Positions 10,338 to 46,137 of a stretch of 64,000 nt of DNA are shown in pieces (position 1 is the stretch's first letter; every line of letters begins with the position of its first letter). The translations under genes were made by a program, and so were the position numbers. Origin of the DNA: Ulva prolifera (taxonomy: Eukaryota > Chlorophyta > Ulvophyceae > Ulvales > Ulvaceae); the NCBI GenBank assembly GCA_023078555.1, contig JALAAN010000014.1:2501-66500 (forward strand), written 5' to 3'. A model generated the notes under the pieces. That model had not been told where the DNA came from and ran no database searches. It saw only the letters and a list, made by a program, of their open reading frames with translations.

Positions 10338-10664
10338 AATGGACCGAGCCTTGTGTCTGCAGCCACCATCCTCCAAGTATCAAAAGAATGATATTCAGCA
10401 TCCTGCATTCATGTATCTATCGGCCTCGCCTCCGCGTCGGAGCTGCGGCGTCGGCTTCGAATCCAAGCATCTGCATCCAAAAACTCCGCGATGCCGATCG
10501 CATCGCGTCGGCGTGTTCCGTCCAACAGTCCAAAAGGAAACAGCATGCATCGAGCAGCGGGGCGCCGCAGCAGCGACGCACCTCTGGCCACGCCGGCCGC
10601 GGCGGCCCGCCGGCATCCCGCAAAAGAAAACAGGGACCGAGGGTGGCGCGGAGGTCGCCTCCGG
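10338..10664. repeat. module gamma, replaces the helicase 3' end of copy A
   Basis: The first part is nearly identical to the start of alpha; the second part is its own and contains CCAAAAGGAAACAGCATGC. It ends in the standard terminal block CACCTCTGGCCACGCCGG, then CAGGGACCGAGGGTGGCGC and the CGGAGG-TCG-CCTCCG hairpin at 10649-10663. Its right edge lies inside the last helicase exon: copy D continues with about 75 more codons where copy A switches to gamma. Confidence 0.65.
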
Positions 10665-13600
10665 CGCGCTGGCGTCTAGCGTCGTGTCCGCTGCAGACTT
10701 GCTGTGCACGACCACGCGCTGCCCGGACAGCTCCACGGTCGCACTCAGCATGGACGACGCCGTGCGCACCGCCGCCGGCACAATGGGCAGCTGAACTCGC
10801 AGTGCAGCCACCTTCCGCGTCCTGACCACGAACTCCAGCTCAGGCTCGGGGTGCAGCGCCTCTAGGATCATGGTGTTGGCTGGCGAGCGGATCGCGACAT
10901 AGGGCAGGAGCATCTTGCCTTTGGCTTCATTTGCCGAGATGAAGTCTTCCAGCAGCTTGTAGGCAATCTTCTCGACCGAGTCTATGTCATGTGTGTCCGT
11001 GCGCATCCGCACGGGGGTCCATGCGACCTTCAGGCTGTCCGCTTGCTTGCACATGAAGTCGAGTCGCTTTTCGAACTCCACGCGCACCGTCGATGTGTCC
11101 ACAAACTTCCAGGCCACGGCCGAGCACGAGGCCCCATTGGGCCGGCTCGGCCCGAGGCACGCCGTCAGAAGCATCGGCTCGCCCAGATACATCTTGATGG
11201 AATCCCAGCTCGCGAACGACATGTCCTCCAGCTGTCGCACCATCTTCTGTCCACCCTTCGTCATCGTGCTGCATGCACTGACGCTTGTCAGAATAACTGT
11301 GAAGCAGCAGCGCGCAACTCATGCACCACCACACTTCAACCTATTCACACACCCACACCTAGACACCGCAGTTGTGTGGGGCACAATACAACGATGTGGT
11401 TCAGCAGTCCAGCACATTTTGCATGAACATGGGAATCAACACACTAGCCCTCAGGGTTACCCACGTGCACGCAGCACACACAGGGAGATGCTGCGAAGCG
11501 CACTCGAATGCATACGCGTCCCTTGCGGCAAACACAGCGTCTGGTATCTCGCAGGTTGTACCCTCACCGAGCCCGAGCCGCATACCATCCGTGCGCTTGT
11601 ATGAATACATGAGAGCCCGGTAGTCAGCGCGCGTCAGCAGAATGTCGCGCAGCTCTTTGCAGTCTGCCTTGTACGGCGCGATGACGACAGTGGCTGTCGG
11701 AAGGCTGCGATCCTCCCCTGACAGGTCAATCGCGTAGTTCGGGTTCCGGTAGGTCTCCGGGTCCGCACCAGCCTCCTGCCAGCCAAAGTTGACCCCTTTG
11801 ATGCCCGTGTTCTGCTCCGCAGCCTCTCGCGGGGTCTTCTTCAGATCAGAGGTGCAAAAGGTGACGAAGTTGAAGCTGGTCGCGAGGTTGACCTTGCGAC
11901 CCTTCATCATGCGGATGTCCTCGTTCGACCTGAAAGCAAACCATGTCCCTCACGGACAAACCCTAGCACTTGCAGTGATTGATGGTACATTCTCCACGCA
12001 GCTGCCGCGGTTCAGTAAATGTGCTGATGCACAGCACGCGGTGCCCTCAACCACATGTACCACGTGCCAGCCCGATCATAGCAGCCATGACAAAGCAAAC
12101 ACACAGGCAAGGAGCGCACGGATTGTGTAGTAGCCGGAAGCCCAGGCCACGCAGGCGCCTCTGACCATGCACCGCAAAGATGTGCCAATGCATGGTTGAG
12201 CAGGGCTGGCCGAGGGCGTTGAACACAGCCGTCCATGGCATAACAACCTCCGCCTTCTCTTGTTGCACCCTGCCTTGGTGATCGATGTTCGTGATTCCGT
12301 ATGTTTTGCACGGGCTCTGGTGCGGGTCACACGACAGAATGTACTGGCACTGGCGGAGCAAATTGGCAGACCCGCTTGCCATATTCGCCTGCTGAAGACC
12401 TCTTTGATGCTGGGTGAAGAGCTGCGGCACTTGTTGCACCCACGCTTGCACCTCCTCCAGCACATGCAGCTTCCGGCCGGCCACACGCTCAAAGGTCGGG
12501 CGATTATATCCGGCTGGTCGCGGTGGCAAGGCCGGCTCCCAGAAGTAGGTGCCCATGGCCTTGTAGCACGTCTCGGCGGGGAACCCGATGTTGTGCGTGA
12601 CACCAGACTTGTGCACCATTAGCTTTGCCTGATCGAGCGTCAACCCCGGCAGCTGAGCAGTGTTGCCCTGAGCTGCAGTTCGCAGAGGCGAGCCGATAAC
12701 GGACAGGGCGAGGGCGTCCAGCATTAACCCGGTCTTGCCCGACCCTGGCATGCCCACAACAATGACTCCGTTGGCATGGTCGGCTGATGGCTGTCCTGCC
12801 AGCAACAGATCCTGCACGGAAGACTAGCCTTGTACATTGCGTGGTAGGGGTCACATAACAAAGGGCAAAACACCAGTGACAGCGGTGTTTTCTTTTAAAG
12901 ATGCTGCACGAGACAATATCATTTCATGCACATTGCCCATCACAAGCACACACATATCACGCACCCTACAGTCGGACATGACGTGAGGGTCAGTGCGCAT
13001 GTGGCAAAGGTCAAAGAAGGAGCACACCGCGCCGGTGATGGCTCTGACACTCTTTCCAGGTCCCATGTGCTGGTCTCTGACCCTCAGCTTGTAGCTGAAA
13101 GGCTGTGCCGTGGTGTCCTTGCATGACTGCAGCAATGCGGCCACCTGCGTTGGATTGCGCACTGTGACGGGCACACGGTGATCAATAGGGGCCCAGCGTG
13201 CGCCACGTCTGGGTCCGCCGCTGCCTCTCCCACCAGCACCCCCAGGGTCACCGCCGCCGCCGTCGCCGCCGCCGCCGCCGCCCCTAGCAGCGCCGCCGAT
13301 ATCGCCTCGGGCTCCATCATGACTGTTGCGTCCCATGCTGCCTTCACCAACGCCGGTGCCACTGCTGCTGCCTGCACCTCCATGCGAGCTCGGGGTATCA
13401 CTTGCCCGCGCGCCGCTGTGCCCATGCACGGGGCTCCTAGCACGCTTCTGGCCTCCAGTCCCCGCGCAATCGCCCACGATAGCAATCGCTTCTGCGCAGA
13501 CCTCTCCCGTGTTGCGCTCGCCTGAACTAGGATCTTGCCGTGACTTCGTTTGCCGGGCTGGTGCAAGAACGCCCCTCTGGCCACTCCTGCTGGTATCCCT

Positions 13601-16600
13601 TTTCCGACGCATCGCTGGCGGCTGCGCAGAGGCGCCTCCGTCACCAGTCAGATCGATCGCGCCCGCGTTGTCTGCTGCACGGGCTGCTGATGCCCGTCGC
13701 TTTGATCCGATACCCTGCCCTCGCGTGACATCACCAACCGGACGTACGCGGGCATCAGCGGTGAACGCAAACTGCTGACGTGTCGCGTCCGTCTTGGCGG
13801 CAGCCTTCAGACTTGTCAGGTCAGTAGGTGTAAAACCCGATGTCACAATGACTTCAGGGTCACATCCATCAGGCCATGGAATCTGCATGTTGCGTAGGTA
13901 TAGTTCATGGCAGACACTACTGACATTTTCCGGGCTTGCTTAAGCCGGCCGAGATGTCTCTCAGGCTCAATGCACGAACACAGAACCACACACAGCAGCA
14001 CTTCATGCTCAAGGATGGTGAATTTTAACAGCGCGCACCTCATCAAGTGGTGCTCTGTGCCCTTGTCGCGTCCGTGACCGCTCGAGGATGGTCGCCCAGG
14101 AGGTCTTGTCAAACTGCTCTGAACCGATGAGCGCTGCACGGGGAATGCAGGCCAGTACCGACAGGGCCGTGCCGACATCATCGTCGCTGTTGACCCAAGT
14201 CGTGGCCGCAGCAACCTGGACGAGCTTCCATGAGAGCGACAGGCCCTCCGCATAGGAATGGTGCCACATCAGCTTGGACAGGTCAGCAATTTTTGAGTCT
14301 GTCGAGCTCTCGTGGACAGCTTTGATGCAGTGCGCGATGCCCCACACAAACAGGGCCAGCAGCGCCGGCAGCGTCGGACGCGGGAGCTGCTGCAACTGCT
14401 TCAGCAGCTGCATGGTAGTCACGTGCACTGTCACGCGCAAACAGCCATGGGCATCAGGGTCAAAGGCTCGAGCAATGAGCAGCTCGCCTGTGTCCCTCAC
14501 CAACTGGAGGTACCGAATGTCCACCTTGCCGATCTGGGGTTGTGGCGCTGTCATTTCGCGTGACATGGAGAGGTGCTGCACGCGCATTGAGTACGTGAGG
14601 CACTGTACCTTGTCGCCGCTGCGTTCCTTTTCCGCCTTGCAGTGAGACAGCCCGATGTGGAGTCTCGCCGAGTTCTCACTCCGCTGAGCCTGGGATGCCT
14701 GCACATCGCCCGCACGTGCTCGCGCCGGTGCTTGTTTCTTCATCGGCCGCGTCTTGGACGGCCGCGGTGCCTTGAAGTCAAAGCCGACAGGAACAAACTC
14801 CTGGACCACCAGCGTCTGTTTGCTGCGTTGCCTCACCCACATCGGCACCTCGACTGAGATGTCAGGGAGCACATCTTCCACCGCTGCCAGCTTCGTCCAG
14901 TCCGCGAGGCTTAAACTGTGCAGCCCATCCATCACTTGCATTGCTGATGACGCTGCATGCATGTGGTCGGTCAGCGAGGTGCTATCAATGCAAGGACTGG
15001 CATAGTCGGCATCATCACAAACCGACCCCACCCTTGTAGACACATCGGCTGGCAACGCAACTGCGACAGGCGTGCTACAGCATCGGAACACCTCCGTATT
15101 GGCATGGTATACAAGCATTCACAGTGATCGCTGACACACAAAGATTTTATTTTTTTCGTGTTCATACGTGCGCACGCACCCTACGCAAGCAACCCTTGTG
15201 GACACATCCTGTTGTGCCGCAGCCAAATACAAATCACACTTCTGCACCGTGACACAGATCCAGGCGGAGGGGGTCATTCGGTGGCCACGTCACTCTAATA
15301 CATAGCAGTGCGGAGGGACACCACGTGCGGGCGATTCCAGTCACACAACAGAACGACCCCGAGTTCATACCATGCTCACATCGCCGACTCGATGATGTTC
15401 GACCACGCATCGCTTTCGCGACTGGGCCCGCCTCAAGGTTTTTGAGGCCCTTGCTGGACTTACGGCGTGCGGCCCGCATGCTCACAGAGTACGCCTTCCG
15501 CAATTTCTCCTTCTCAGATAGTGGCTTCGCTTCGTAGCGCTGCCGCTTTCGGTGGTTGTACCTAGCAGCCTTATCCGTCATCAGAGCGTTGGTCGGGACA
15601 ATCACGCCATCAGCCGCGTCGTCCATGAGATCGGCTTTCACGAGGTCAAGCGTGCCTTCACAGCACACTGGTGTAAGACATTGGCCAATTAAATGCACAA
15701 ATGACGTTAGCTGAGTTGCAACACGGATGCACGCAGTGCACTCATCTACTGACTCACGCGTAAACGTGTCCTCATGAGCAGTCACCAGGAGTCGTGCACA
15801 CAAAGTCATCCTATAAATGTCAACCAAATTAACAGTTCAGTGCATGTGCTCAATATCGCACCTGCGCTGCGATGTAGTGTGCCCGGCACAGTCACCAACA
15901 CGATCGCGTCCAGAGCTGTGCCACTGTCCTTCGAACTCGACAAGCACGTGATGCATAGTCCGTCGACAAGCCGATCTGGCGGCAGTGTCTTCTTGCACGC
16001 GGGCGCGTTGCGGCAACGCGCGCGACCGGGCGGCGGAGCCGGCAGGCATTCAAATACTGCAGCGTCAGCAGGTGTCTGCGCGAGAGCAGCCCGGCTTGAG
16101 CTTGCACCACCGTGTGCGGGGGCTGGCACCGACTGTCCCTGCACTGCCGCGACGGGCATGCATTCTCCGATGAGGGCGACCCCATCACCATCACAGTCCG
16201 ATTCGGTGTAGGCGCCGTAATCGTCACCCATGAGTGCATCGTCGCTGTCACCTGTGTCGACATCACAAGGAGGCTGATCAGCATCGACGGCTTCAGCCTC
16301 CGCGCCAGTGTCTGAGGAAACACAGCATGCATTGCCGAAATCTTCCTCATCACTGTACAACTGAACACTCCCTGCGGGCGAGGACTCGTCCTTTCGCTCG
16401 GCGATGCGAGCCTTCTCGGCTGCCTGCTGGTGCTTCGCATGTACAGCACAACAGCGGGCGCATACATAGCTGCCTCGCACTAGGCCCACCCCCTCGATGG
16501 AGCAGACCCGCTTGCACTTGGGGCAATACCACGTTGTGGCGTCGCTTGTTGTATCGCACACCCTCAGCACCACTGCATGGCAGTGCTGCTTGGCGCTGCA

Positions 16601-19600
16601 CATGCAGCTGTCATGCGTCAACGAGATTTTATTCTTGCAACGGCCCTTCACACTATCGATGTAATGGCATCGTGTGACCTCAGATTTGTCCCGCATGTCG
16701 CACGTGGGCAGCCCAAGGGCGCGTGCGAAATCTCGAGCCGGCAGGAGTGCGAGGGCCGGGTCAGACCGGAGACGCTCGAGGACGAGTCTCAGGTCCTTGT
16801 CTCCCGCAATCTGAGCCTTCGACCCTCGATCCCCACGTAACACGCATCTCAACCCGCACGTGCCGTCTGCCTCCAACAGCTTCACGTCCGTCCAGCGCTG
16901 ACACCCACGACAATAGTACACGACTGTCGCATCCCACCCGTCTTGACTTTGTCGGAACAACACATCATCAATGTGAGGATAACACACCCTTGACTTCGTG
17001 GGCCCGACACTGTTGGTGCAACCGGCAACATGGCACTCGTCCGCCCGAGTCGGCCACATGTTGAATGCAGTGTCCTTACTGGCACGCGACTTGGGGGCAT
17101 AGAAAAGCAGCCACTCCATGCCGTCAGACATGTCGGGCAAGATCTGGTGCACAGTGGTCAAGCCGTCGGGCGTTTGTGTGCCATGCTGCACTTGCCGCAC
17201 GGGAGCTCGCTTTGGACCGCCGCCTTCAGCGCAACCATTGCAAATGCTTCGCGCAGTCGTGCCGTCGGCCCGTGTTACCCACGCGTCCGGGCTCTTCCAC
17301 AGCGCGCAACGATTGCAGAACATTCTCTCAAATGTAACATGCGCATTTGTGTGGTGGATGACACAGCTCCGGTGATAGGGGCACACTCGGGAGGGGTGCC
17401 GGTGGTTGCTAGGTGTCATCGAACCCCCCGGGCAAGCCTCGTATGCCTCCGTCTTCTTGTCCCACACATACACAGCGCATTGCGCGCCGGTCAGCTTCCC
17501 CGGCCAGGGCGCGCCAGCTGGCATCCGTGCGGTGATCATCACCGGTGCACGTGCGGGTGGACGCGGCAATGCTGCCTGCACTCGCTCGTCCTGCTCCTGC
17601 CGCGGGGCGTCCATCTCCAGGCACACGCAGCATTGGCGCTTCCAGTTGCGCGAGTCCTGTGCGAAAAGGCCCTCTTCCTTCAGGTAGAAGCAGCGGCTGC
17701 AGCTGACAGCAGCAACCCCATTAGCATCGATCAGGCGTGGGATCTGCAAAAAAAACATCCCTTGTCAATTAACAAGCAAATCTTAGGAAGAAACACTCAC
17801 GTGCCAATTTGAAACTCACAACACATGCAAGGCAATCTATTTATGCATGTACTGCAATACTGAATCGACAACACTACCCCGTGTGGAATGGAATAGCAAG
17901 GCATGTGGACTTAGGGCAGACACGCATGGAAATAGCACCTTCACATGCTTTGGGCAGAGGCCGGTCTTCTGGTTTTCTAGCAGCACACTGCAAGAGGTGA
18001 CATCACAATGCGTCAAATCGCGTTTGTGCAAATTGGCAGAGCCAGCGACTAGAGTCTCGAGCCGTGGCTCAGTCACCGCCACCCCGTAAAATGCCTCATC
18101 CACCGGCGGCAACACTGCCTTCCGGCCAAGCATCGTTGCGCCTGTCCTGTGAATGTTGCAAACAGTGGCAAATCCGGTGAAATTCCCGATGTCCAGAACC
18201 TTCTTGCACGCTGTATTCTTGCAGTACCGCCCAAAGCCAGCGGTCCGCGTACCACGGAAATCTTCAATTAGAAGAAGCGGCTTCCGAAGGTGGCGAGGGC
18301 ACAGATGCATCTGATTGCTGACCCCCCCCACGGTATCCGCAAGGCACAGCTCGTCTGCACCCGTCGCCCCCGCTGCCGATTTCTTGGAGTCAACAGCGAG
18401 GCACTTGCCCTGAAGCGGTATGTCCGGATTTGCCACCTCGAGCGACTTGTAGCTTCGCACCACCACCGGCACCGGTGCTCTTTCTACAACAACATGCGGG
18501 CTGTGAGAAACAAAATTTTCGGTGGAGCATCAACATAATCTTGTGCCATGTAGACAGCCGACTCACCAACAGACCTAGCCCTCAAGGGAAAACACAAATG
18601 TTGTTGCGGTCGCACCCAAGCGCAGATACTGCAGCATTTGCTCCAAACTGTCGTTGCCCTGCCGTATTTGGCGAATGACACCCATGAACCCCGCACCGCC
18701 CGCGGTCCAGATCCAGTCCCGCATGTTCAGCGTCGGCGGCCTCTGTACCGGGATGCTGAAGTGCTGCAAAGTCGCCTTGCGGTGGACAAGGATCGCATTG
18801 AGGCCCTCCGTGGTCACCTGCATGCCAACATCTTGAATGTGTGAACACTACCATTCAATCACGTGTGGCCATGATGCGGCTCTCCATTTTCTATGCATCT
18901 GTGACGAGGGCGACTCGGGTGCAGCTCAAACCCACCATGCATGTGTAAAAAGGTCGCGAAACGGATACACCAACCCAACAAGCAAGGTTGGCTGTCTCAA
19001 CATCGACACATGCATTGCCACAATGCAACATTGCCAACCGCTGGGTGCACATATGCATATGCGGCATGCACCAATATAGGAGCTACCGAACATGAGTAGG
19101 CGGTAACACGAACCTCCACCTCAACAGTGCCGACACGAAGTTTTGTCAGCCGCTTCCGCCGCATTGCATCCGAATTGTATAAGCACTCGCGTTTCCGCAT
19201 GCGCTCCAACAGGAAATCTCCCTCTTGTCCGAAGAGCTCAGCATTGGACATCTCTTGACCAAATCGGCAGAGATCGACGTCTTCGGCAATGTCCTCAACA
19301 GTGCAACCCTCTGTCTGAGCATCGCGATCTTCAAGGTGGTCACACACGTCGGCCACGACCCTCTCGCCAACCGATCGCATGGCCTCCAGCGGAGATGAGA
19401 TCTTGCTGCCGCTAGCCGTGCTAAGCATGCTTCGCAAGTCCACACCATGATCCCCACCTGCAGCCTCCAACTCGTGCAACCATGCCGTCTGCACCTCGTC
19501 GCCAATCTGTAGCATGGTGCAAAAGGCCTTCACCTCCGCTGCACAGTTATCAATCGCGATTAGCATCACGTGTGGCCATGTGGAAACGATTGGAGCAGCA

Positions 19601-22600
19601 TGCAGACAACACAGTGGGTGCAAATATGCATGCATGTCGGCCGAGTTCCCAAACGTACAACTGTCAAACATGCGCATATAAGGTTTGATTGATTGACAAC
19701 GTTATTCGGGGGGCAATTGGCTTATGTTTCGCACAATGCCCCACCGAGCAGCGGGTACTAGACACAGTCATACGTGCGCTGTAAACAATGCGCATGTGAA
19801 CAATAAGTTTTAGCGGTGAATAACTTCCACATTAACGCTGATCACATGATGGTGCTGTGAGCAGTGCCAGGACGGGACGGTAGGGTGCACGATGCGGCAT
19901 CAACAGGGCCAAAAGTGGAACTGTTGATGGGCATCGTGGGCTAGTGTCTCGTGCGTGATTCTGCAAGCCACCTACGCATTTACACAGACCAAAACCGAAT
20001 CTCCTTCAAATCAACATCATACATACACACGATTACACCACGATAGCGGCGACACCTCTACCCGCGAACGCACAGTCAACGAACGGGCAGCAGCCCGATT
20101 CATTTATGGGTCAAAAGCAGCGGTGGCATAACAGAAACATAATTAGGCGGAAAATGGGGGAGTGACCAATAGCGGATTTACACGCGGCGATACAAGCGGG
20201 CCACTGATATGCACATGCGTTTTACGCGCGACGACCAATGTAGGCGCAATTGGCCAACCCTTCACACAAAATTTGCAGCGCCCAATCCCAAAATCACGAG
20301 ACAACACCACCAATGTCCCCCTGCCTAGAGTGGTGCGACCGTCACGGAAATCTTAGCTACAAATGGTTCACACATCCGATGGTCCACACAGAGACCTTCG
20401 CATCGCAATCACGTAAGTGCCCGTCGTGACACAGCCACAACAAATTTCATTGAGCCGCGTCGACCGCCGACGGTGTTTGCAAACTTGCCACAACACGCTT
20501 GCATGGGCAGAAAGTGGACGGTGAACAACGATTCAAAGGAAATGCATAACAACGATGATCATAAGGCCGAGTGAACAGTTGACGTCTAGTGGCTCGTGCA
20601 AACTGTGATATCGGAACATGCACTTTGCAAAATAGGCACATGACAGATATTTTGTAAGACGTGCTAGTGTTCTTACCTGCACTGTCCTCGCTGGGCTTGT
20701 ATTTGTCCTCACCCCACAGATGGAGTGGCCCGGGCCCGCGCGGGTGCATCTTGCGGATCAATGTCCACCCGTATGCGGCAACAGCACTCTCGCCAGCGGT
20801 CTGATGAACACTCATGCTGGCGTCTAGGAGAGCTCGACCATGCATGTCAGCAGCTCGCAACTGCCGCGTGCCCTCTACACTCTGTAGGAACAAGTTCCCA
20901 ACGGCCGCATGTAGATACACCGCCAACGCATACGGGTTTTCATCCCGCTGCACGCGTAAGGCCTTGAATGCAGCGGTTTTGACAAGGTTCTTCATCGCCG
21001 ATGGCACACCAAGGTCAGACAGGGCCTGCATCATGTGTGATGTCATGTATTTGCCATTATACATCAACAGCATGGCCAGCACATGGTATCATGTCAACAT
21101 AAATCACAATCACACAGGGCAGTCGCCTTTCCGACAAGTGCAGATCACATGAGACGCACCAAATCTCCAAACAATGCGTTGAGGAACGCAGGGTGGAGGT
21201 AATCTGTTTGATATGTGTTGCAATTGGTCGACCATTGGCCACCGACAGCAATCGCCGTTCTGTTCTCGTGGCCATTGTGGTGAAGGTGCCCTTGTATAAC
21301 GCGCCCAAACACCATCCCCGTCCGCATCTCACGTGACAATGCATGAATGTCAGTCGAGGCAAGGAATCGCGCCAAGAGGGCAGACATGGCGTATGGCGCC
21401 ATGGGGATGAATCGTAGTGGCACCATGCCGTGGTAGCGACAGAAGCAGAACCTGCATACAACAAGCTCATGCATCAACCTTGCGGGTGAACAAACAGACC
21501 CATGACAAAAATTCTATACCCCATCATGGGAAGCACAGCAACCGGAATGGTGGACATGTGAATTGATACATGGATTTCAAGTATGGAGAAGCCACGCACA
21601 TATCGTCGACAGCCGCTGGAGTGGGGTCCCCGAACTTGGTGAGCGTACGCCTTCTGATCAGATGACTCAATTTGAATGGCTCTCCAATCGGCAGGCCCGC
21701 AAGATCTGCCACATCGACAACCCTCTGGTGAATTGCGATTGACAACAAATGCTCCCCAGCCGAACCAAGGCTGCTGTTCCAATCGGCTCCTTCAATGTTG
21801 AGAGCTGCGGTACTGTCCACCACAATGTTCTTGACGCCGAACACATTAGGGGCCTTGTCCCATGCGATCGCAAACTCACATGTAAATGTTACCTGTTCAC
21901 GAAACCCTGAGTCAGCTCTCGATGACGCACCACGCCATTCAGATACTGTGGCGGAGAGGTGCATGCATGGTGCGCGAGCATGCGAATGTTGCAGGCATAA
22001 CGCGCATGCATGCGGATGATGCTGCAACCATCGACCACAAGACACATGCATGCAAGGTTGGAGACACGTCAATGAGGCAAACCCACCTGTGTGGTTCGAG
22101 TCGCCTCGTCCACGTAGTAGGTTGGGACGAAATGGATATGGCCCCACCGCAACGCCACAAAGACCGGGTTCCGAGCTCCAGAAAGCATCTTCAAGAATGC
22201 CGTCACCCCGCCCGTACATGATGGTCATCGCGCCACAGTTAGTGGCTTCAGCACAGCTCCGGATCTCGGCGGCTTGCATCGGCTTTGGCTTTAGAGTGTT
22301 CATCGCACCATTCGCCTTGAGAGCCATCACATACAGCCGCACTTTGATTTGGAATACACGGAACAAATAAGACGCCTCCCGATGAGCCTGCAGGCAAGCA
22401 CGCTTCTAAATGCATGTGAGGGGTCAACAACGCCGCACTCGCGTCACGTAAATGGCCGGGTCCTTGAAGTGTGTACACGACACTTTATGCTGACGTTTGT
22501 AATTGCATGCTGCCGCACACTACCATATCGATGCACATGGGAAGCATGAACGCACCTTGGCTACAGAAGCTTCGCTGCGAAACAGCTCCCATTGCCCCTC

Positions 22601-25600
22601 CCAATACGCATCCACAAGGACCGTGAGAATGTACTTGTACAAGGCGAGTGTATTGAAACTACCTATGTGACCGGCCCATGTCAGCAGCGTCAAGGTGTGG
22701 CCAAACACACGCCCGGGACACTTTCTGAATGACTCCACGACGGCCCCCATTGGCACCTCCCCTGCACTGTTGCATGATTTCTTCATGTCATTTAAGATCT
22801 CAGCCGGGGGGGCGCGGTTGGGATCTCCTCGAGGGTCAAATGCTGGATCGTCCACAGCTGACACCAGCGCTGCCAGATAGCCACGCGCGAATGTCAACGC
22901 TACACTCGCAGATTTCTTCTGGCCTTCCACACCACGGCATGGTATGCATTTGTACCAGTTGGCATCTGTGTCATCCCAGACGGCTAACGGGTGTGACGCC
23001 AAGTTCCGCACTTGCATCTCATGGCGCGGCATGACAACATCATGGTGAGCCATTGCAGATGCGTCCATGATGCTGCACTTGACTCTGCACACCGTGTCGA
23101 CACATGTTTGCGGTTTTGCCCTGTGGCCATAACTGATACTAAGCATGTGAGGAATGGAATGCTAACGGATGCGTTCGGCCACAACAGACATACGCTAGTC
23201 ACCGCACAGTATCAGCATTGTTACTCACATGTACATGCAGTATGGCAGCTTTGCCGCAGTTCAAGTATGTGGCGTTGTTGGTGACAAATAACACTTTATG
23301 ATGCGTGCATGCATGTGTCGGGATCCCGCGCAAAGTGACACAACACAAGACCGCTGTGGGGTCCGCGGAACAGGCCATAGACGCACATGGGATTCAGCGG
23401 GGGCAACATGGAATACACACCTCGCGTATCGCTCTGGATTGTCGAGCAAATCTCCAAGGCGGTGCAGCTCCGCAACCTCATCACCATGCGAGTGCTCGCG
23501 TACAGTCACAACGCCGCAGTCGCCGTCGGCAGGCTCCGCCGCCCGGGTGGGCGATGCGCACACAATAACTGAATCAGACTCCGACGGTGTGTACGACGGG
23601 TCTTCTACACCCTCGATGTCCTCATCACTGGAGTTGAAGAATGAAAAACTCTCACACTCTGCCTTGCCATCATCACTGCCTGGCACACCGTCACCACGTG
23701 CCGGTGAGGCTCGCATCAGTTGCGGTGTAGGGGCAGCACCACCACTGCCTCTGTGTGCAGCACTCGCCCGCTCACACACACCTGTCACGGGTGGCACCTG
23801 CTCGGGTCTAATGACAGAATCACGACGGCAAAGCGCGGCCGCAAAGTCCGGCTCCAGGGCAGCAACATCACCCTGCCCACAGGTAGCGCTGCTGTCAGCC
23901 GGTGCCGCTTCGCCGCCACAAACCCCAACCTCAGGTCGCTGCGCAGCGACCCCGCTGAGCCACTGCGTGAAAGACTTTTGAGGCTCGCGTGCGCCTCCCT
24001 CAGCAAAATCCACCAACCGCGCAGGTGTACCCCGGTTGGAGGCATCTGGCAAGGGCGCATCGTCGTCAGAATCATCAAGAACGGCCCTGGACAGAGACAC
24101 AGCACCCCTTCTGTGTTTAGGGCGGTGCGAGGCACTGCGCCCCACATGCCACGTCTTCCTAGCAGCGGGGCGCACACCGGCGCTGATCCATGATACATCA
24201 AGCCCACGGATGCAGTTGGCTGCACCAGGACCCCCCAGTGAAGGGCGAACCTCAGCGGCGGAGTCTGCAACGGTGGTATTACCCACATTGGGAGCTGCCA
24301 TAGGACAGCCACCTTCAGGGGCCACTGCAGCTGCAGCATCCACAGCCGCGCCCCCACCCGCCGCCTTCCCTACGACTGCGCACACGCTGTCAGCTGCCTC
24401 CTCACGCACACGCTTCTTCACTACAGACCTGGCACCAGACATCATACGAAACTGCCGCGATGTCCGAAGACGCAATGCAGCTGCTGCAATCTGCTTCGAC
24501 TTGGCTGATGGGCTGGCCACCGCGGCCGGCCGGTTTGAAACCGCCTCAGCTGAGCCCAACCCCGCCGCGCCGCCGCTGCCCCGTTCACTACCAGCCTCCA
24601 CACCTCCACCGGGATCAGGCAGCATGGTTCCAGAACCACCTCCCCGCAGCCTCAGCCCCACGCTGGTGTGTGCCAGGGTCAACTCTGCAACCAGCTGTGG
24701 GTCTGCGGCATGTGCAGCACCCGCAGCACCTGTGGCCACTACTGCTGCGCCCGCTACAGCCAAACCGGTAAAACTCACACCATGCGCAGCCGCAGCAACA
24801 CCTGCAGCCGCGGCTACATCTACAGCGGGCACATCATTTGGATGCGCAATAGAGTCAAACCCCACGCATCCCACGGCACTGGACACCACTGCCCCGAACT
24901 CAGGACACATGGCTCCTGTGGGCTCGGCTCTTTGCTCTATCAGCACATTCACATCACGGGCACCCTCAACCGTAGCAGCAGCAAATGTGGACACAGACAT
25001 TGGAGCCGCTGCGTGCACAACCCGCACCACGCTTTGGGTTACGCCCTGAACCTCTGCCGCGCCCACTGACAGCACCGCAACTGAAGCGGACGGTTTTGCA
25101 GCCACAGTCGCTGCCCTTGGAGCATGTGATGCCGCGACTGCGCTGCCATGTGATGCCGGCGCAACAAAGCACGTGGCCGCTGCATCCAAACCAACTGCAG
25201 CCAGGCGTGCTGCAAGCAACAGAACGCGGCCAACCCGTGCGCTCTCCAGCCTGGATGCTGAGCTCGAGGCTGGCTCAACCATGGCACGTTGCAGCAGCGA
25301 TTGGACACAGCGCATGATGCAGGCACCGAGGTGCATGCCCGCGGTGATGCGCCCCGGCTTCACTTGCCCCACAGGTTCATGAGCGGGCACCACGAGGGCA
25401 GTGCTTGCCACCGCATGCATGCCCGCCGGTGCCGGCGCAAGACCCTCGCACCATGCAAGGCCATACTCTGACTGCCGCACAACGACACTCCCCAACGGAC
25501 TCGAACCCGTCACACACACACGCGTTGGTGTGGGTCTGGTGGACGCACGTGTGGCTGCTTCGCGCCTCCGCTCTGGATTCAATAGCCATGCGCGAGCGGC

Positions 25601-25813
25601 AGTGACACGATCCTCCAGCGCTGCTGACTCTAAAGCGGCAGCTCCAGCCCCTGTGTTCGCCGGCAGGCTCATCATGGTGACGCGCTGTTCGCGCCACCAG
25701 TTGCGCTGCCCTGCGCTGAGGTGGCCCCGAGCAACGTTGGCACACTCCTCCTGCCGCCACAGCCGCCGTGTCCGAGGATGGTGCATCCGCCTGCCTTGGA
25801 CAAAATGTGCCAT
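10395..25813 (-). CDS. giant multidomain protein with C-terminal SF1 helicase, copy A (16 exons)
   Basis: Proposed exons, 5' to 3' on the minus strand: 25813-23421, 23072-22556, 22387-22087, 21892-21600, 21451-21160, 21025-20677, 19538-19114, 18817-18616, 18483-17939, 17743-15862, 15667-15380, 14952-14039, 13882-12965, 12811-12173, 11919-11471, 11268-10395. Every intron has GT donor and AG acceptor, and phases close through all 15 joins once one extra C in exon 3 is discounted. With the exon 16 end of copy D, the total is 11,079 nt, 3,692 residues. The start ATG (25813) has a good context; just upstream, copies A and B differ by a 5-bp indel, which fits a non-coding leader. Two defects: the +1 C at about 22204-22209, and exon 16 running into module gamma, which replaces helicase motif VI with a foreign tail ending at 10395. 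Introns 8 and 14 are the least certain. The role is unknown; the domains suggest DNA handling in the nucleus. Confidence 0.7.
10665..11268 (-). CDS. exon 16, helicase domain 2A, truncated in copy A
   Basis: Starts after GCATGCAG and reads TMTKGGQKMVRQLEDMSF, then GEPMLLTACLGPSRPNG, which matches the 'G-x-PVMLxxNLxxxxGLxNG' region of PIF1-like helicases. Then QLPIVPAAVRTASSMLSATV occupies the place of motif V, although the usual KSQG is not conserved. The genuine sequence stops at about 10665; the frame continues through module gamma to a stop at 10395, adding about 90 unrelated residues. Motif VI is therefore missing and this copy should lack helicase activity. Confidence 0.65.
11471..11919 (-). 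CDS. exon 15, helicase middle region (residues 3320-3469)
   Basis: Contains TVVIAPYKADCKELRDILL, which fits the strand-helix of SF1 motif IV (APT/PYxxQ type), followed by a YSYKRTDG segment. The acceptor is taken as CGAG before 11919, which keeps phase with exon 14 and is unaffected by the extra base copy D has just upstream; a stronger-looking TTTCAG lies 10 bp further 5' but gives the wrong phase. Donor GC/GTGCAC. Copy D carries two single-base insertions here (about 59157 and 59262). Confidence 0.6.
12173..12811 (-). CDS. exon 14, helicase domain 1A with Walker A, B and motif III (residues 3107-3319)
   Basis: Walker A is GMPGSGKT at 12731-12754, preceded by the hydrophobic strand GVIVV. 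Motif Ia-like RTAAQGNTA follows. Walker B-like LHVLEEVQAW has Glu-Glu where PIF1/RecD helicases usually have Asp-Glu. YILSCDPHQSPC matches the GDxxQLPP motif III of that family with two changes. Order and spacing fit SF1B helicases of the PIF1/RecD type. The exon end GCG/GTGCAT is inferred. Copy D has a 1-bp insertion at about 59946 that breaks this exon; copy C ends inside Walker A. Confidence 0.7.
12965..13882 (-). CDS. exon 13, Gly/Ser-rich linker and helicase lead-in (residues 2801-3106)
   Basis: A 918-nt exon. It begins IPWPDGCDPEVIVTSGF; the middle is low complexity with a KKRARSP-like basic patch and a Gly-Gly-Asp run coded by a GCC/GTC repeat at about 13250-13290. That run carries the indels that break copies C and D. 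The last 90 residues are ordered (VTVRNPTQVAALLQSC, FFDLCHMRTDPHV) and lead into the ATPase core. The donor AGG/GTGCGT at 12965 varies to GTGTGT in copy C and GTGCTG in copy D. Confidence 0.6.
14039..14952 (-). CDS. exon 12, globular region upstream of the helicase (residues 2495-2800)
   Basis: A 914-nt exon. Copy D has 917 nt because of one extra in-frame lysine codon in the PPKKKQ stretch; both are open throughout. Copy C has -2 and -1 bp errors at about 48300 and 48400. The sequence is folded-looking, with a hydrophobic helix, LALFVWGIAHCIKAV, and a conserved ATTWVNSDDDVGTALSV block. Acceptor ACATGCATGCAG and donor GAG/GTGCGC. I do not recognise the family. Confidence 0.6.
15380..15667 (-). 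CDS. exon 11, basic linker (residues 2400-2495)
   Basis: A 288-nt exon between acceptor TTACACCAG and donor T/GTGAGC. It has identical length in copies C (49140-48853) and D (63250-62963). It starts CCEGTLDLVKADLMDDA, then a strongly basic helical part (NHRKRQRYEAK, SEKEKLRKAY, RAARRKSSKG). Such a segment could bind nucleic acid or act as a nuclear localisation signal; that is inference from charge only. Confidence 0.65.
15862..17743 (-). CDS. exon 10, Cys-rich zinc-module array and acidic tail (residues 1773-2399)
   Basis: One uninterrupted 1,882-nt exon with about eight further zinc modules. They alternate CxxC...CxxC types (SCSRC...QCCVC; FCNRC...ICNGC; YYCRGC...LRCVL; WYCPKC...VCARC) with CxxH types (RVCPYHRS; ECHVAGC...VCYPH; RCHYID...CMCSAKQH). 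An acidic, disordered stretch follows (YSDEEDFGN, DTGDSDDALMGDDYG), then a last C4 module, RCRNAPACKK...LCITC. The modules recall Stc1-like or HNH-adjacent treble clefs, but no single family is certain. The open frame continues 18 codons through the start of intron 10 to a TGA, so unspliced transcripts would end a helicase-less protein of about 2,400 residues. Confidence 0.7.
17939..18483 (-). CDS. exon 9, start of Cys/His zinc-binding array (residues 1591-1772)
   Basis: An exon of 545 nt, the same length in copy C (51956-51412). Three modules of C-x(n)-C-x(9-16)-C-x2-H type are visible; their ends read HLCPRHLRK, ATVCNIHRTG and TGLCPKHVK, and the second and third begin YCKNTACKK and HCDVTSCS. 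The spacing resembles small treble-clef or knuckle zinc sites. Donor AAG/GTGCTA keeps phase 0 with the TTTTTGCAG acceptor of exon 10. Copy B has a 1-bp deletion at about 33123 (CTCAGC for CTCGAGC). Confidence 0.65.
18616..19538 (-). CDS. exons 7-8, acidic helical region (residues 1382-1590)
   Basis: Exon 7 (19538-19114) and exon 8 (18817-18616) are joined by donor GAG/GTTCGT and acceptor GCATGCAG. Exon 7 is the best proof of coding in the gene: copy C (52899-52475) differs at about 30 of 141 residues yet has the same length of 425 nt, no indel, the same phases and unrelated introns. It contains DEVQTAWLHELEAAGGDHGVD and a conserved DLCRFGQEMS block. Exon 8 contains the MRDWIWTAGGAGFMG segment. 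In the same frame a TAG stop follows 43 bp past the chosen donor (TTGG/GTGCGA), so a shorter protein ending here is an alternative. Confidence 0.65.
19539..20676 (-). other. intron 6, longest intron (1,138 bp)
   Basis: Bounded by CAG/GTAAGA at 20677 and CTGTGCAG at 19539-19546. It is nearly identical in copy B (34219-35352). In copy C the equivalent intron is only about 340 bp, unalignable, and contains two poly-C runs. Short open frames inside it have no support, and no RNA gene is evident. Confidence 0.55.
20677..23072 (-). CDS. exons 2-6, globular region of unknown family (residues 798-1381)
   Basis: The five exons are 23072-22556, 22387-22087, 21892-21600, 21451-21160 and 21025-20677. 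Donors are AAG/GTGCGT, CAG/GTGGGT, AT/GTGCGT, TTG/GTGCGT and CAG/GTAAGA. Copy B has the same five exons, and exons 3-6 have the expected lengths of 300, 293, 292 and 349 nt. The sequence is mixed, folded-looking and rich in aromatic residues; examples are WAGHIGSFNTLALYKY, RWGHIHFVPTYYVDEA and FCFCRYHGMVPLRF. Exon 5 ends with a His/Asn-rich stretch (GHLHHNGHENR) and then GGQWSTN. I compared this by eye with tyrosine recombinase boxes, Helitron Rep and KDZ transposases and could not assign it. If the element is a transposon, its recombinase most likely sits here. Confidence 0.6.
23421..25813 (-). CDS. exon 1, low-complexity N-terminal region (residues 1-797)
   Basis: Starts MAHFVQGRRM with a basic, Trp-containing first 50 residues. 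About 600 residues of Ala/Gly/Val/Ser-rich, probably disordered sequence follow, with basic patches (KKRVREE, RPKHRRG). Near the 3' end is an acidic stretch, NSSDEDIEGVEDPSY, then a short helical segment, LHRLGDLLDNPERYA. The donor GAG/GTGTGT at 23421 leaves phase 2, matching the next acceptor. The region has no recognisable catalytic domain; tethering or nuclear targeting is only a guess. Copy B has at least three indels here and is not open. Confidence 0.6.
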
Positions 25814-26179
25814 CGTCCTGCGCACCAACAACGTCAGCGCTGCGCCGCAAAACAGCACATCATGCATGAAGCAGGGGCATGAGACACAATGCGTACCGCC
25901 TCACTCTGGGCGTCCCGTGCCAGCGTACACTCCACTGGACATCATCGATGCTAGGCGCCGAGACCTCCACAGTCAGCTTTGCCGCCCTAGCTGGCATGGC
26001 CTCATCAGGAAACCTGTGCACCACAGGCAGACTTACAAAACAGTGAGTGCACCACTGGCATGTTTAGCATGGCGACGGGAAGAGTGCTGCAACAGACCAA
26101 CGGAGATATCTCAAAACCCATCGTACCTCAACAGCCACACGCACACATGGCCACACTACAGCAGAGTATCAAACTACAG

Positions 26180-26326
<147 letters not shown>

Positions 26327-28357: not shown

Positions 28358-29345
28358 TCACTGCGGCTGACCCCCGTCATGCACTGGTGGTGAAGTTGGC
28401 GTAAGGAACCCCATCCGCAGATATTCGGTGGTGTAGACACGCACATCGGGCGACCACCTCACAGAGAGGCGTATTCCCAAATCAATCCTTCCTACGTACG
28501 GCTGGCGACTCATATGCTGGAAGCATGTGCCAGCTCGGGCGCGCGCAGCGAGGTGGGTTCCTGGCCGTCTCCCGGCCGCACCAATCAGGCGCGGCACCCA
28601 CACACACACATCCACAGGCGCTGGCTGCTGCCACCCCACTCCAACATCCACCCTCCACACCGCGGCAGCAGCCATGGACGTCCAAAACTGTCCCACGCGA
28701 GCACCCGTCAGCACGCGTACACGTACGCGCTGCCCAAACACAAAGTAAACCTCGGCACCCGCCTTGGATATCCCCACCCGCACCCACACATCCGGCAGGG
28801 CCCACATGCCCGCAGATCTCAGCAGCGCGGGAAACATGGCCCCCACCCGCACCGCCGCCACAACCTGCTGCTGCATCGCGAAGACGTCGCTGACCCGCTC
28901 CGGGTGCCGCAGCCCGCCGCCAGCCACACGGGCATCGCGACTGCGGACGCCAGCGGCCATGCGTGCTGCCCCATCCACATCTGCCATGGGCTCCACGTGC
29001 ACCCCAGCCACAGAACCACCGACCGGGCCTTCCTGCATGACCAGCACGCGGTGTGACTTCCTGTGAATTTCAGGTCACATCACTGTACCGTGGGGAATGA
29101 CGGTGTGGGTCGAGTGCTGCAGTGCAGGCCAGTGCAAGATTCTCTCGCACGCCCTGCTTCCACCCCCTACCACCATGTGCCTGCACGCACATCCGCTGCG
29201 CAACTTCGCACCCACCTGTCCTGCCTTCAGACGCTGCCCCGCCGTCATTGCCGCAGCCACCTCTGCTATCCACACAGCCGAACTATTATTGAAAAGAGCT
29301 GCTGCCTGTTCTACTAACGGTGCGTCAGGTCGCCGGACGTTCCTC
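28358..29345 (-). CDS. gene Q, last two exons, best copy (R3)
   Basis: Exon 29345-29216 (130 nt) joins exon 29032-28358 by donor CAG/GTGGGT and acceptor CATGCAG, phase 0. The first encodes a helix (PLVEQAAALFNNSSAVW, then VAAAMTAGQRLKAGQ). The second encodes about 224 residues with HPERVSDVFAMQQQVVAAV and a beta-rich core (ISKAGAEVYFVFGQRVRV; APVDVCVWVPRLIG; RLSVRWSPD), ending near TEYLRMGF. Compared with R1 and R4, all indels inside the second exon are 6 or 12 bp, while introns shift freely. That is strong evidence of past protein-level constraint in this frame. Upstream exons are not identified. Function unknown; it always sits about 2.5 kb upstream of the helicase gene on the same strand. 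Confidence 0.65.
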
Positions 29346-30327: not shown

Positions 30328-30340
30328 ATCGCTTCACAGG

Positions 30341-33300
30341 TCAACTGCTTCACAAGCACACTGGTGTATACCTTGGCCAATTAAATGCACAAATGACGAT
30401 AGCTGAGTCGCCACGGATGCACGCAATGCACTCATCTACTGACTCACGCGTAAACCTGTCCTCATGTGCAGTCACCAGGAGTCGTGCACACAAGGTCATC
30501 CTTCAAATGTCAACCAAATTAACAGTTCAGTGCATGTGCTCAATATCGCACCTGCGCTGCGGTGCAGTGTGCCCGGCACAGTCACCAACACGATCGCGTC
30601 CAGAGCTGTGCCACTGTCCTTTGAACTCGACAAGCACGTGATGCATAGTCCGTCGACAAGCCGATCTGGCGGCGGTGTCTTCTTGCACGCGGGCGCGTTG
30701 CGGCAACGCGCGCGACCGGGCGGCGGAGCCGTCAGGCATTCAAATACTGCAGCATCAGCAGGTCTGCGCGAGAGCAGCCCGGCTTGAGCTTGCACCACCG
30801 TGTGCGGGGGCTGGCACCGACTGTCCCTGCACTGCCGCGACGGGCATGCATTCTCCGATGAGGGCGACCCCATCACCATCACAGTCCGATTCGGTGTAGG
30901 CGCCGTAATCGTCACCCATGAGTGCATCGTCGCTGTCACCCGTGTCGACAGCGCAAGGAGGCTGATCAGCATCGACGGCTTCAGACTCCGCGCCAGTGTC
31001 TGAGGAACACAGCATGCATTGCCGAAATCTTCCTCATCACTGTACAACTGAACGCTCCCTGCGGGCGAGGACTCATCCTTCCGCTCGGCAATGCGAGCCT
31101 TCTCGGCTGCCTGCTGGTGGTTCGCATGTACAGCACAACAGCGGGCGCATACATAGCTGCCTCGCACTAGGCCCACCCCCTCGATGGAGCAGACCCGCTT
31201 GCACTTGGGGCAATACCACGTTGTGGCGTCGCTTGTTGTATCGCACACCCTCAGCACCACTGCATGGCAGTGCTGCTTGGCGCTGCACATGCAGCTGTCA
31301 TGCGTCAACGAGATTTTATTCTTGCAACGGCCCTTCACACTATCGATGTAATGGCATCGTGTGACCTCAGATTTGTCCCGCATGTCGCACGTGGGCAGCC
31401 CAAGGGCGCGTGCGAAATCTCGAGCCGGCAGGAGTGCGAGGGCCGGGTCAGACCGGAGACGCTCGAGGACGAGTCTCAGGTCCTTGTCTCCCGCAATCTG
31501 AGCCTTCGACCCCGATCCCCACGTAACACGCATCTCAACCCGCACGTGCCGTCTGCCTCCAACAGCTTCACGTCCGTCCAGCGCTGACACCCACGACAAT
31601 AGTACACGACTGTCGCATCCCACCCGTCTTGACTTTGTCGGAACAACACATCATCAATGTGAGGATAACACACCCTTGACTTCGTGGGCCCGACACTGTT
31701 GGTGCAACCGGCAACATGGCACTCGTCCGCCCGAGTCGGCCACATGTTGAATGCAGTGTCCTTACTGGCACGCGACTTGGGGGCATAGAAAAGCAGCCAC
31801 TCCATGCCGTCAGACATGTCAGGCAAGATCTGGTGCACAGTGGTCAAGCCGTCGGGCGTTTGTGTGCCATGCTGCACTTGCCGCACGGGAGCTCGCTTAG
31901 GACCGCCGCCTTCAGCGCAACCATTGCAAATGCTTCGCGCAGTCGTGCCGTCGGCCCGTGTTACCCACGCGTCCGGGCTCTTCCACAGCGCGCAACGATT
32001 GCAGAACATTCTCTCAAATGTAACATGCGCATTTGTATGGTGGATGACACAGCTCCGGTGATAGGGGCACACTCGGGAGGGGTGCCGGTGGTTGCTAGGT
32101 GTCATCGAACCCCCCGGGCAAGCCTCGTATGCCTCCGTCTTCTTGTCCCACACATACACAGCGCATTGCGCGCCGGTCAGCTTCCCCGGCCAGGCGCGCC
32201 AGCTGGCATCCGTGCGGTGATCATCACCGGTGCACGTGCGGGTGGACGAGGCAATGCTGCCTGCACTCGCTCGTCCTGCACCTGCCGCGGGGCGTCCATC
32301 TCCAGGCACACGCAGCATTGGCGCTTCCAGTTGCGCGAGTCCTGCGCGAAAAGGCCCTCTACCTTCAGGTAGAAGCAGCGGCTGCAGCTGACAGCAGCAA
32401 CCCCATTAGCATCGATCAGGCGTGGGATCTGCAAAAAAAACATCCCTTGTCAATTAACAAGCAAATCTTAGGAAGAAACACTCACGTGCCAATTTGAAAC
32501 TCACAACACATGCAAGGCAATCTATTTATGCATGTACTGCAACTGAATCGACAACACTACCCCGTGTGGAATGGAATAGCAAGGCATGTGGACTTAGGGC
32601 AGACACGCATGGAAATAGCACCTTCACATGCTTTGGGCAGAGGCCGGTCTTCTGGTTTTCTAGCAGCACACTGCAAGAGGTGACATCACAATGCGTCAAA
32701 TCGCGTTTGTGCAAATTGGCAGAGCCAGCGACTAGAGTCTCGAGCCGTGGCTCAGTCACCGCCACCCCGTAAAATGCCTCATCCACCGGCGGCAACACTG
32801 CCTTCCGGCCAAGCATCGTTGCGCCTGTCCTGTGAATGTTGCAAACAGTGGCAAATCCGGTGAAATTCCCGATGTCCAGAACCTTCTTGCACGCTGTATT
32901 CTTGCAGTACCGCCCAAAGCCAGCGGTCCGCGTACCACGGAAATCTTCAATTAGAAGAAGCGGCTTCCGAAGGTGGCGAGGGCACAGATGCATCTGATTG
33001 CTGACCCCCCCCACGGTATCCGCAAGGCACAGCTCGTCTGCACCCGTCGCCCCCGCTGCCGATTTCTTGGAGTCAACAGCGAGGCACTTGCCCTGAAGCG
33101 GTATGTCCGGATTTGCCACCTCAGCGACTTGTAGCTTCGCACCACCACCGGCACCGGTGCTCTTTCTACAACAACATGCGGGCTGTGAGAAACAAATTTT
33201 CGGTGGAGCATCAACATAATCTTGTGCCATGTAGACAGCCGACTCACCAACAGACCTAGCCCTCAAGGGAAAACACAAGTGTTGTTGCGGTCGCACCCAA

Positions 33301-40481: not shown

Positions 40482-40846
40482 CGCCCTGCGCACCAACTGT
40501 CCAACGTCAGCGCTGCGCCGCAAAACAGCACATCATGCATGAAGCATGCATGAGAACAATGCGTACCGCCTCACTCTGGGCGTCCCGTGCCAGCGTACAC
40601 TCCACTGGACATCATCGATGCTAGGCGCCGAGACCTCCACAGTCAGCTTTGCCGCCCTAGCTGGCATGGCCTCATCAGGAAACCTGTGCACCACAGGCAG
40701 ACTTACAAAACAGTGAGTGCACCACTGGCATGTTTAGCATGGCGACGGGAAGAGTGCTGCAACAGACCAACGGAGATATCTCAAAACCCATCGTACCTCA
40801 ACACCACGCACACATGGCCACACTACAGCAGAGTATCAAACTACAG

Positions 40847-41529
<683 letters not shown>

Positions 41530-46106: not shown

Positions 46107-46137
<31 letters not shown>

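Follow-up and report, generated by a model that had tools for sequence, protein, structure and literature searches.

A giant multi-exon gene family of Ulva prolifera combining a tyrosine-recombinase-like region, a zinc array, and an SF1 helicase

Introduction

Does a long series of exons on one strand of an Ulva prolifera contig form a single giant gene, and if so, what kind of protein does it encode and to what kind of family does it belong? The window analysed here is the whole stretch of 64,000 nucleotides from contig JALAAN010000014.1 (positions 2,501–66,500). A preliminary description of its sequence had proposed one minus-strand gene, here called copy A, with 16 exons between 25813 and 10395, GT-AG introns whose phases all close, about 11 zinc modules, and an SF1 helicase, and had suggested a mobile element or a telomere-linked-helicase-like family.

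Gene structure of copy A and its intact paralogue

Copy A is a single gene of many exons on the minus strand, with GT-AG introns and approximately the coordinates proposed. The tblastx comparison with a diverged paralogue of the same genome, located on C6 (7.62–7.64 Mb), recovered conserved blocks for all 17 exons in the same order (Table 1), and the 17 joined exons of C6 give a single stop-free frame of 3,935 amino acids, which bears out the proposal of one giant protein with a low-complexity N-terminus. Eight exons (3, 5, 6, 7, 8, 9, 12, and 15) have identical lengths in copy A and C6, an equality that is not fully independent because the junctions were picked using the A/C6 alignment, some of them being set by hand. 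In the region of exons 3–9, a purpose-written spliced aligner placed seven, six, and six introns in C5, C1, and C4, respectively, the positions of which were not compared one by one. Amino acid conservation between copy A and C6 is mostly 45–80% in the chosen frames (tblastx), and the dN/dS ratio is below 0.3 in all seven pairs; together, these values exclude a chance origin. Over the recombinase-like region, dN/dS is 0.06–0.15 in the five nearer pairs tested, with dS near or at saturation. The giant multi-exon gene is real.

The exon order of the 16-exon model is conserved with C6, but 17 exons were read, the model having missed the one at 25990–25897. The conservation of this upstream exon indicates that 25813 is probably not the true start of the gene, and it is likely that another exon precedes it. 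Copy A itself is a damaged family member. Its exon 4 is frame-shifted relative to C6, so that not all phases close in this copy; exon 4 of copy B is open in a single frame. The last exon of copy A is cut at 10664 and fused to unrelated repeats, so that the copy lacks helicase motif VI and its stop at 10395 belongs to the repeats rather than to the gene. Beyond 10664, where the match of copy A ends, the sequence extends further in copies D and C14 (L034), and C6 continues for about 110 residues past the cut, motif VI included.

From its N-terminus, the protein has a low-complexity stretch, a conserved domain of 450 residues encoded by exons 4–8, a zinc array, a second conserved domain, and finally the SF1 helicase. 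Intact members appear to be single proteins approaching 4,000 residues in which the recombinase-like domain, about ten zinc modules, and the helicase are united.

Table 1. Exons of copy A and other features of the family in the window
Feature	Position	Strand	Basis or remark
Exon 1 as read here (MPARAAKLTVEV...)	25897..25990	-	Conserved with C6; donors GTACGC/GTACGT; absent from the preliminary description
Exon 2, long low-complexity N-terminal region, ends conserved	23421..25817	-	tblastx to C6, junctions
Exon 3, 529 nt in A and C6	22556..23084	-	Acceptor uncertain (third-ranked choice)
Exon 4, recombinase-like box I, G-A-R-N-P at 22179-22165; frame shift in copy A	22087..22387	-	A/C6 comparison, family alignment
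Exon 5, invariant D-K-A-P lysine (21865-21849)	21600..21892	-	Junctions, family alignment
Exon 6, box II-like: R of S-R-E-M-R (21336-21319), G-Q-W (21243-21226), Y of D-Y-L-H-P (21207-21190)	21160..21451	-	
Exon 7	20677..21025	-	A/C6 junctions
Exon 8	19114..19538	-	Donor set by hand
Exon 9	18616..18817	-	A/C6 junctions
Exon 10, zinc array begins	17939..18483	-	Junctions, Cys/His columns
Exon 11, main zinc array; outside relative P0001 39% identical	15862..17743	-	Junctions, homologue search
Exon 12	15371..15655	-	5' side is the second-ranked choice
Exon 13, second conserved domain, fold without assignment	14039..14952	-	Junctions, alignment
Exon 14, Gly-rich linker included	13028..13882	-	Junctions, C6 joined frame
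Exon 15, SF1 motifs I (12754-12731), II (12466-12443), III (12334-12314)	12120..12811	-	Junctions, helicase alignment
Exon 16, helicase	11480..11929	-	Junctions, helicase alignment
Exon 17, cut short in copy A	10664..11268	-	Intact paralogue runs ~110 residues further with motif VI
Non-gene repeat fused to cut exon 17, source of stop at 10395	10342..10663	-	10342-10522 is 97% identical to 2508-2688
Copy B, exons 1 to about 12	30333..40987	-	3' edge at N (30327)
Copy C, about exons 8 to 15	46219..52907	-	Edges near poly-C tracts and N (53378)
Copy D, 3' half with natural C-terminal region; frame change near end (by eye); runs beyond window	56823..64000	-	
Companion (S) open frame	28358..29074	-	Other copies 875-1672, 7943-8740, 43623-44597

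Zinc array and helicase

The two domains named in the preliminary description are both recovered in the family alignments. In the zinc array, 42 Cys/His columns are conserved in at least five of six sequences, corresponding to about 10–11 sites, and the helicase carries the SF1 motifs I (Walker A), II (DE-box), and III, plus VI in intact copies (alignment A2). The best Pfam model for the helicase is AAA_19 (E 3.2e-4, two of four members); searched against Pfam by itself, the C6 helicase matched no helicase model, and the helicase profile found no helicase among PDB sequences (13 matches up to E 10, the best at 0.19). A PIF1 search of the genome identified six places, one of them about 5 kb from the C7 copy, and none lies in the helicases of A, C6, C5, C1, C3, or C4. 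Structure predictions for two single-exon models of domains other than the recombinase-like one were useless (pLDDT 34 and 30).

A tyrosine-recombinase-like region

From sequence comparison, the previously unassigned 450-residue domain looks like a divergent tyrosine recombinase. It keeps R..K..R..W..Y in the order seen in tyrosine recombinases, and G-x-R-N-P, D-K-x-P, [LM]-R, G-Q-W, and Y are invariant in all four aligned members. All five residues are present in nine of ten members; the exception, L218, is a degraded copy that contains a stop. In the numbering of the C6 protein they are R1202, K1243, R1371, W1401, and Y1412. The box I arginine occurs in a G-x-R context in all ten and aligns to box I of XerD, while the D-K-x-P lysine is found in nine of the ten, in the expected order and outside the profile alignment. 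The second arginine, at the HxxR position, is present in every member and in register by profile, the histidine of HxxR being replaced by R in six, K in three, and S in one. W and Y are also kept in 10/10, though the profile alignment stops short of both. The H-E-N-R of C6 was considered as HxxR and rejected, the motif not being kept in C5, C1, and C4. The R-to-W spacing seems longer than is usual for tyrosine recombinases.

The recombinase profile comprised 80 tyrosine recombinases, namely 75 XerD-like loci of viral contigs together with XerD, Cre, lambda Int, FimB, and FimE. In profile-profile alignment over the whole region, the box I arginine of the family falls on that of XerD (P 0.0092, one of 300 column shuffles as good), and the box I segment alone gives P 0.0014 (0 of 200 shuffles as good). 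The second arginine falls on the R of HxLR (P 0.011, two of 200 shuffles as good), in a segment chosen after the motif was known. These two segments score 25.6 and 21.2, and none of 12 decoy segments taken from the protein exceeds 14.5. The hhalign probabilities are 2–18% for the family versus 98–99.9% for held-out true recombinases, and widening the family alignment from four to ten members brought no gain (P 0.012). The signal comes from the 80-sequence profile only, a first profile of five recombinases having no match to the domain. The recombinase-like alignment has no match in Pfam, PHROGs, or PDB sequences, and PF00589 matches nowhere in the genome.

Copies and genomic clusters

Copies B, C, and D lie on the same strand as copy A, in agreement with the multicopy, same-strand arrangement noted before, and show 97–99% DNA identity except for one 484-base piece of C (78%). 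Single Ns coincide with the 3' edge of copy B (30333; N at 30327) and with copy C on its 5' side (N at 53378), so that both boundaries may be assembly joins. A general 3' truncation of all copies, considered as a family feature, proved partly wrong: D is uncut at the 10664 site, two junctions carry Ns, and one C6 copy is an internal deletion.

In the genome, family sites occupy internal positions on seven of ten large scaffolds, with the C1 cluster at 3.54–3.78 of 12.7 Mb and the C5 cluster at 3.36–3.47 of 9.8 Mb. The clusters on C1, C2, C5, and C6 measure about 115–250 kb, and their subfamilies are largely cluster-specific. Both damaged and near-identical copies are present. The small companion frame occurs near the giant gene on C1, C2, C6, and C7, and the C6 unit of about 22 kb contains the companion gene, the giant gene, a satellite, and GC-rich repeats. 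The multiple, clustered copies fit the mobile element proposed earlier; mobility itself is plausible, though unproven.

The telomere-linked-helicase-like family suggested at the same time shares with the present one a helicase and multiple copies in same-strand arrays in the window. It is already disfavoured and very improbable: no RecQ family appears among the Pfam matches, the sites are internal to scaffolds, and no telomere-like repeat occurs at the C13 end read or in the first 1.5 kb of 17 scaffolds (those readable among 20), although the large scaffolds may themselves be incomplete at their ends. A centromere-linked element family, with one cluster and its own subfamily per chromosome, would accommodate the size and specificity of the four clusters as well as the satellite and GC-rich arrays beside one C6 gene, and has a parallel in the clusters of Zepp-like elements, which are L1 LINE retrotransposons, at putative centromeres of Chlamydomonas (passages in PMC8226300). 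Against it stand the two sites each on C4 and C6, the scattered fragments on C3, the failure of six protein queries to detect the family on C8, C9, and C10, and the C3 and C7 copies, the nearest relatives of which are the C1 copies. We regard this reading as unlikely, and as compatible with the explanation preferred below.

Relatives outside the genome

Exon 11 of the window has a single outside match, P0001, and neither C6 exons 3–9 nor the helicase alignment gave a hit among 5.8 billion sequences. In these searches about 8,000 candidates were scored each and protein length was limited to 0.55–1.75 times the query, and giant or fragmentary relatives could therefore be missed. As the preliminary description had supposed, no described family with this architecture was found in the literature and sequence databases searched. 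Recombinase and helicase genes occur in large DNA viruses, and the gene content would fit a relic of a large DNA virus, or of a virus-like element, that had integrated into the genome. Such an origin is extremely improbable given the 17 conserved exons, the lack of any viral family above cut-off among the 20 window ORFs scanned, and the lack of a relative among viral contigs at the sensitivity used.

Proposed role of the protein

The tyrosine-recombinase-like region, the recurring companion frame, and the damaged state of copy A are new beyond the preliminary description. In the explanation that we prefer, and to which we give about an even chance, the gene encodes a giant DNA-processing protein with a divergent tyrosine-recombinase-like middle followed by about ten zinc modules and, at the C-terminus, an SF1 helicase, and is the main gene of a large family of cluster-forming DNA elements. 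The protein would act in the nucleus, where the zinc array and the second conserved domain may hold the repeats of the element, the recombinase-like domain, if it has the fold and activity of a recombinase, may cut and rejoin single strands in turn via its tyrosine, and the helicase may open the duplex, so that new copies would be made and placed beside old ones. More tentatively, and with a good deal of doubt, the family may represent a new class of eukaryotic DNA element that has a small companion gene and one spliced protein of about 3,900 residues, in which a catalytic domain of the tyrosine-recombinase type is accompanied by a ten-fold zinc array and the protein's own SF1 helicase. Such an element would maintain clusters specific to each chromosome, and these would act as centromeric regions or colonise them.

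Alternatively, a tyrosine recombinase and a helicase may have been captured long ago by the host and now form a tandemly expanded chromatin, replication, or centromere protein, which, like the Crypton-derived DUF3504 genes, may bind DNA without cutting it. The strong purifying selection on old lineages, the 17 exons, the concentration in a few internal clusters instead of dispersed insertions, and the replaced catalytic histidine are consistent with such a host family, and domesticated Crypton recombinases that have lost most catalytic residues are described (passages in PMC3212892). However, R, K, the second R, W, and Y are all kept, unlike in DUF3504, damaged and near-identical copies exist, and several sites have the companion frame close to the gene; domestication is possible but rather doubtful. 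Even if the family is domesticated, its protein is conserved and approaches 4,000 residues, and the 5.8 billion sequences yielded one relative of it. If the recombinase reading is true, strand-exchange chemistry and helicase unwinding would be joined in one eukaryotic protein, a combination that we found in no described element, and the family would point to a large element class missed by standard profiles. The cluster-specific subfamilies offer a testable link to centromere or recombination-hotspot biology.

Comparison with known systems

Eukaryotic tyrosine-recombinase elements include the Starship captains and the Crypton transposons. The present family resembles these elements in its recombinase-like domain with an ordered R..R..W/H..Y, in being multicopy, and in having no reverse transcriptase in the exons scanned, but differs in its protein of about 3,900 amino acids with an attached zinc array and SF1 helicase, its 17 exons, and its clustering. 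The R-H-R-Y tetrad of Cryptons (PMC3212892, in part) is altered here, the histidine being replaced in all ten members, and the main text of the Crypton paper never uses the word "helicase" (PMC3212892). With the Zepp-like elements of Chlamydomonas, the family shares confinement to a few clusters inside chromosomes; in contrast to these LINEs, it gave no reverse transcriptase match in a scan of 20 window ORFs. A likeness to the KDZ transposases that bear CxC clusters lies in Cys clusters beside a transposase, and a weak CxC6 match was obtained (E 0.06). Membership in KDZ was rejected, as this match does not reach the cut-off and has no counterpart in the C6 protein, and no KDZ domain matched.

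The single large protein of Helitrons, which processes single strands, has zinc motifs and ends in an SF1 helicase. Membership in Helitrons was rejected, no Helitron_like_N/HUH Rep or PIF1 Pfam match being found in the C6 joined exons (three stretches) or the A2 members. The family is like Helitrons in the size of its protein, in the zinc motifs, and in the helicase at the C-terminus, but a tyrosine-recombinase-like domain occupies the place of the HUH/Rep domain.

Gene structure and copy number

The giant gene is real, and copy A in the window is a damaged version of it. In tblastx, a diverged paralogue on scaffold C6 (7.619-7.637 Mb; scaffold names also denote the family member there) showed blocks for all 17 copy A exons in conserved order, with amino-acid identity mostly of 45-80% in the chosen frames. 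Exon junctions were assigned by scoring GT-AG options jointly in A and C6, some being hand-set or second or third choices. The 17 joined C6 exons form a single frame of 3,935 residues with 0 stops, and eight exons are equal in length between the two, the junctions having been chosen using both copies together. The preliminary description of one multi-exon gene with GT-AG introns thus holds, except that its count of 16 exons overlooked an additional exon at 25990-25897. Its closed phases and its gene end at 10395 do not hold for copy A: exon 4 is frame-shifted in A and open in B, and the stop at 10395 is accidental, because matching with the other copies ends at 10664 and repeat sequence follows. 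Copy A therefore lacks ~110 C-terminal residues, helicase motif VI among them.

The window covers bases 2501-66500 of scaffold C13 (77,818 bases; genome 88.9 Mb, 44 pieces). In its self-comparison, copies A-D share 97-99% DNA identity, except for a 484-base piece of C (78%), and a second repeat is interspersed between them. Single Ns at 30327 and 53378, at two copy junctions, suggest that these junctions are assembly joins. Poly-C tracts of 26-29 bases lie close to copy junctions (46107-46135, 53072-53097, 53175-53203), and extended TG dinucleotide arrays lie upstream of the A and B genes (26181-26326, 40848-41529). Left of copy A (1-10338), 1-3270 and 7061-10338 are duplicates (99%), with further repeats besides.

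Giant-gene copies, companion frames and family sites
Feature	Location	Strand	Basis
Copy A	window 10664-26321	same as B, C, D	window self-comparison
Copy B	window 30333-40987	same as A, C, D	window self-comparison
Copy C	window 46219-52907	same as A, B, D	window self-comparison
Copy D	window, at least 56823-64000	same as A, B, C	window self-comparison
Companion open frame	window 28358-29074, 43623-44597, 875-1672, 7943-8740	-	
Family site	C1 3.54-3.78 Mb; lone piece 12.1 Mb		protein queries
Family site	C2 1.85-2.09 Mb		protein queries
Family site	C3 2.71 Mb; fragments 2.62 and 4.40 Mb		protein queries
Family sites	C4 1.06-1.12 Mb and 6.86 Mb		protein queries
Family site	C5 3.36-3.47 Mb		protein queries
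Family sites	C6 7.61-7.79 Mb and 1.80-1.84 Mb; lone piece 5.87 Mb		protein queries
Family site	C7 0.40 Mb		protein queries

Genomic distribution and companion frame

The family consists of real, conserved, clustered giant genes. Six protein queries, which yield lower bounds, also placed it on numerous small scaffolds, with none on C8, C9 or C10 among the matches listed. Exon 11 spans at least 635 of 652 residues in at least 18 places, the window's included, eight of the 18 being stop-free. On C6, a ~22-kb unit is repeated, in which the intact gene is followed by a 166-base satellite (L043/L224, 7636215-7637271, 6.4 copies) and then by GC-rich 50- and 112-base repeats; the neighbouring upstream copy carries an internal deletion from exon 14 through the GC-rich array.

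A small companion frame lies between giant-gene copies (43623-44597 and relatives) and recurs at the C1, C2, C6 and C7 sites and on gene-bearing small scaffolds. Among the 103 matches listed, one, weak, falls away from family sites (C4 0.66 Mb, E 0.004), and none lies near the C3 and C5 copies. In C6 and C1, the frame and the giant gene occupy opposite strands, with the frame some kb upstream, while in the C2 type both are on one strand. The frame has a conserved core, with a Cys-rich tail at its end in C1 versions.

Zinc array and helicase

The proposed ~11 zinc modules and SF1 helicase are both supported. In the array, 42 Cys/His columns are kept in at least five of six sequences (C6, A, C5, C1, C4 and P0001, an exon 11 relative from outside the searched genome) and would form about 10-11 zinc sites. 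The C6, C5, C1 and C3 helicases share invariant G-x-P-G-x-G-K, E-V-Q-A, D-P-x-Q-S-x-C and T-R-V motifs, and AAA_19 was the top Pfam model (E 3.2e-4, in two of four members). The C6 helicase by itself matched no Pfam helicase model, and none of the 13 PDB sequences that the helicase profile matched at E up to 10 (best 0.19) was a helicase. We call it an SF1 helicase, without assignment to Pif1 or RecD. In the C3 copy (L044, 2.697-2.707 Mb), a second, partial zinc array seemingly lies upstream, and the recombinase-like part was not detected within this stretch. A separate PIF1-model match (G000:C7:397018-397500) lies ~5 kb from the C7 copy.

Homologue searches up to E 10 returned none for exons 3-9 or the helicase alignment, and a single one for exon 11, P0001 (39% identical over 97%), whose ends, by eye, seemingly cross the corresponding exon borders into introns. 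Pattern matches in viral (149 and 555) and prokaryote (76) contigs included no relatives.

Recombinase-like domain and possible role

The new point of this analysis is that the exon 4-8 region is probably a recombinase-like domain. C6, C5, C1 and C4 (the latter three 36-40% identical to C6) all keep G-x-R-N-P, D-K-x-P, R after [LM], G-Q-W and Y; all five residues are retained in nine of ten members, the tenth being a degraded copy. This R-K-R-W-Y order is that of tyrosine-recombinase catalysis. Standard searches (Pfam, PHROGs, PDB sequences; PF00589 across the genome) did not recognise a recombinase, and a profile from five recombinases did not match the region. With hhalign against 80 mostly XerD-like recombinases, residues 39-108 aligned to box I with arginines paired (P 0.0092; 1/300 column shuffles equal; controls 0.42 for the helicase alignment and 0.37 for the reversed one), and the later part aligned to box II, R over R of HxLR. 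With separate segments, equally good shuffles numbered 0/200 for box I and 2/200 for box II, the latter segment picked once the motif was already known, and all 12 decoy segments scored below both. The alignment ends short of W and Y, and a ten-member version was not superior to the four-member one (P 0.012). Probabilities were 2-18%, against 97.8-99.9% for held-out Cre, lambda Int and FimB; the region, if a recombinase, would be a distant one.

In this region, dN/dS was below 0.3 in all seven pairs (0.06, 0.07, 0.07, 0.15 and 0.15 for nearer copies; 0.15 and 0.29 for distant ones), values that are rough at dS of 1.05-4.1, at or near saturation. C6 and L220, a locus of the same cluster, share 77% amino-acid identity with saturated synonymous change; old lineages are therefore present within one cluster. 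A mobile recombinase-helicase element is the role we consider most likely, at about even confidence; the chief rival, a domesticated gene family, is possible but clearly less probable.

No published account of such a gene was found in the literature searched, outside most subscription journals and all bioRxiv preprints, and the comparison drew on PMC3212892 and PMC8226300. In PMC3212892, the tyrosine-recombinase tetrad is R-H-R-Y, whereas here the H of HxxR is replaced by R in six of the ten members, K in three and S in one.
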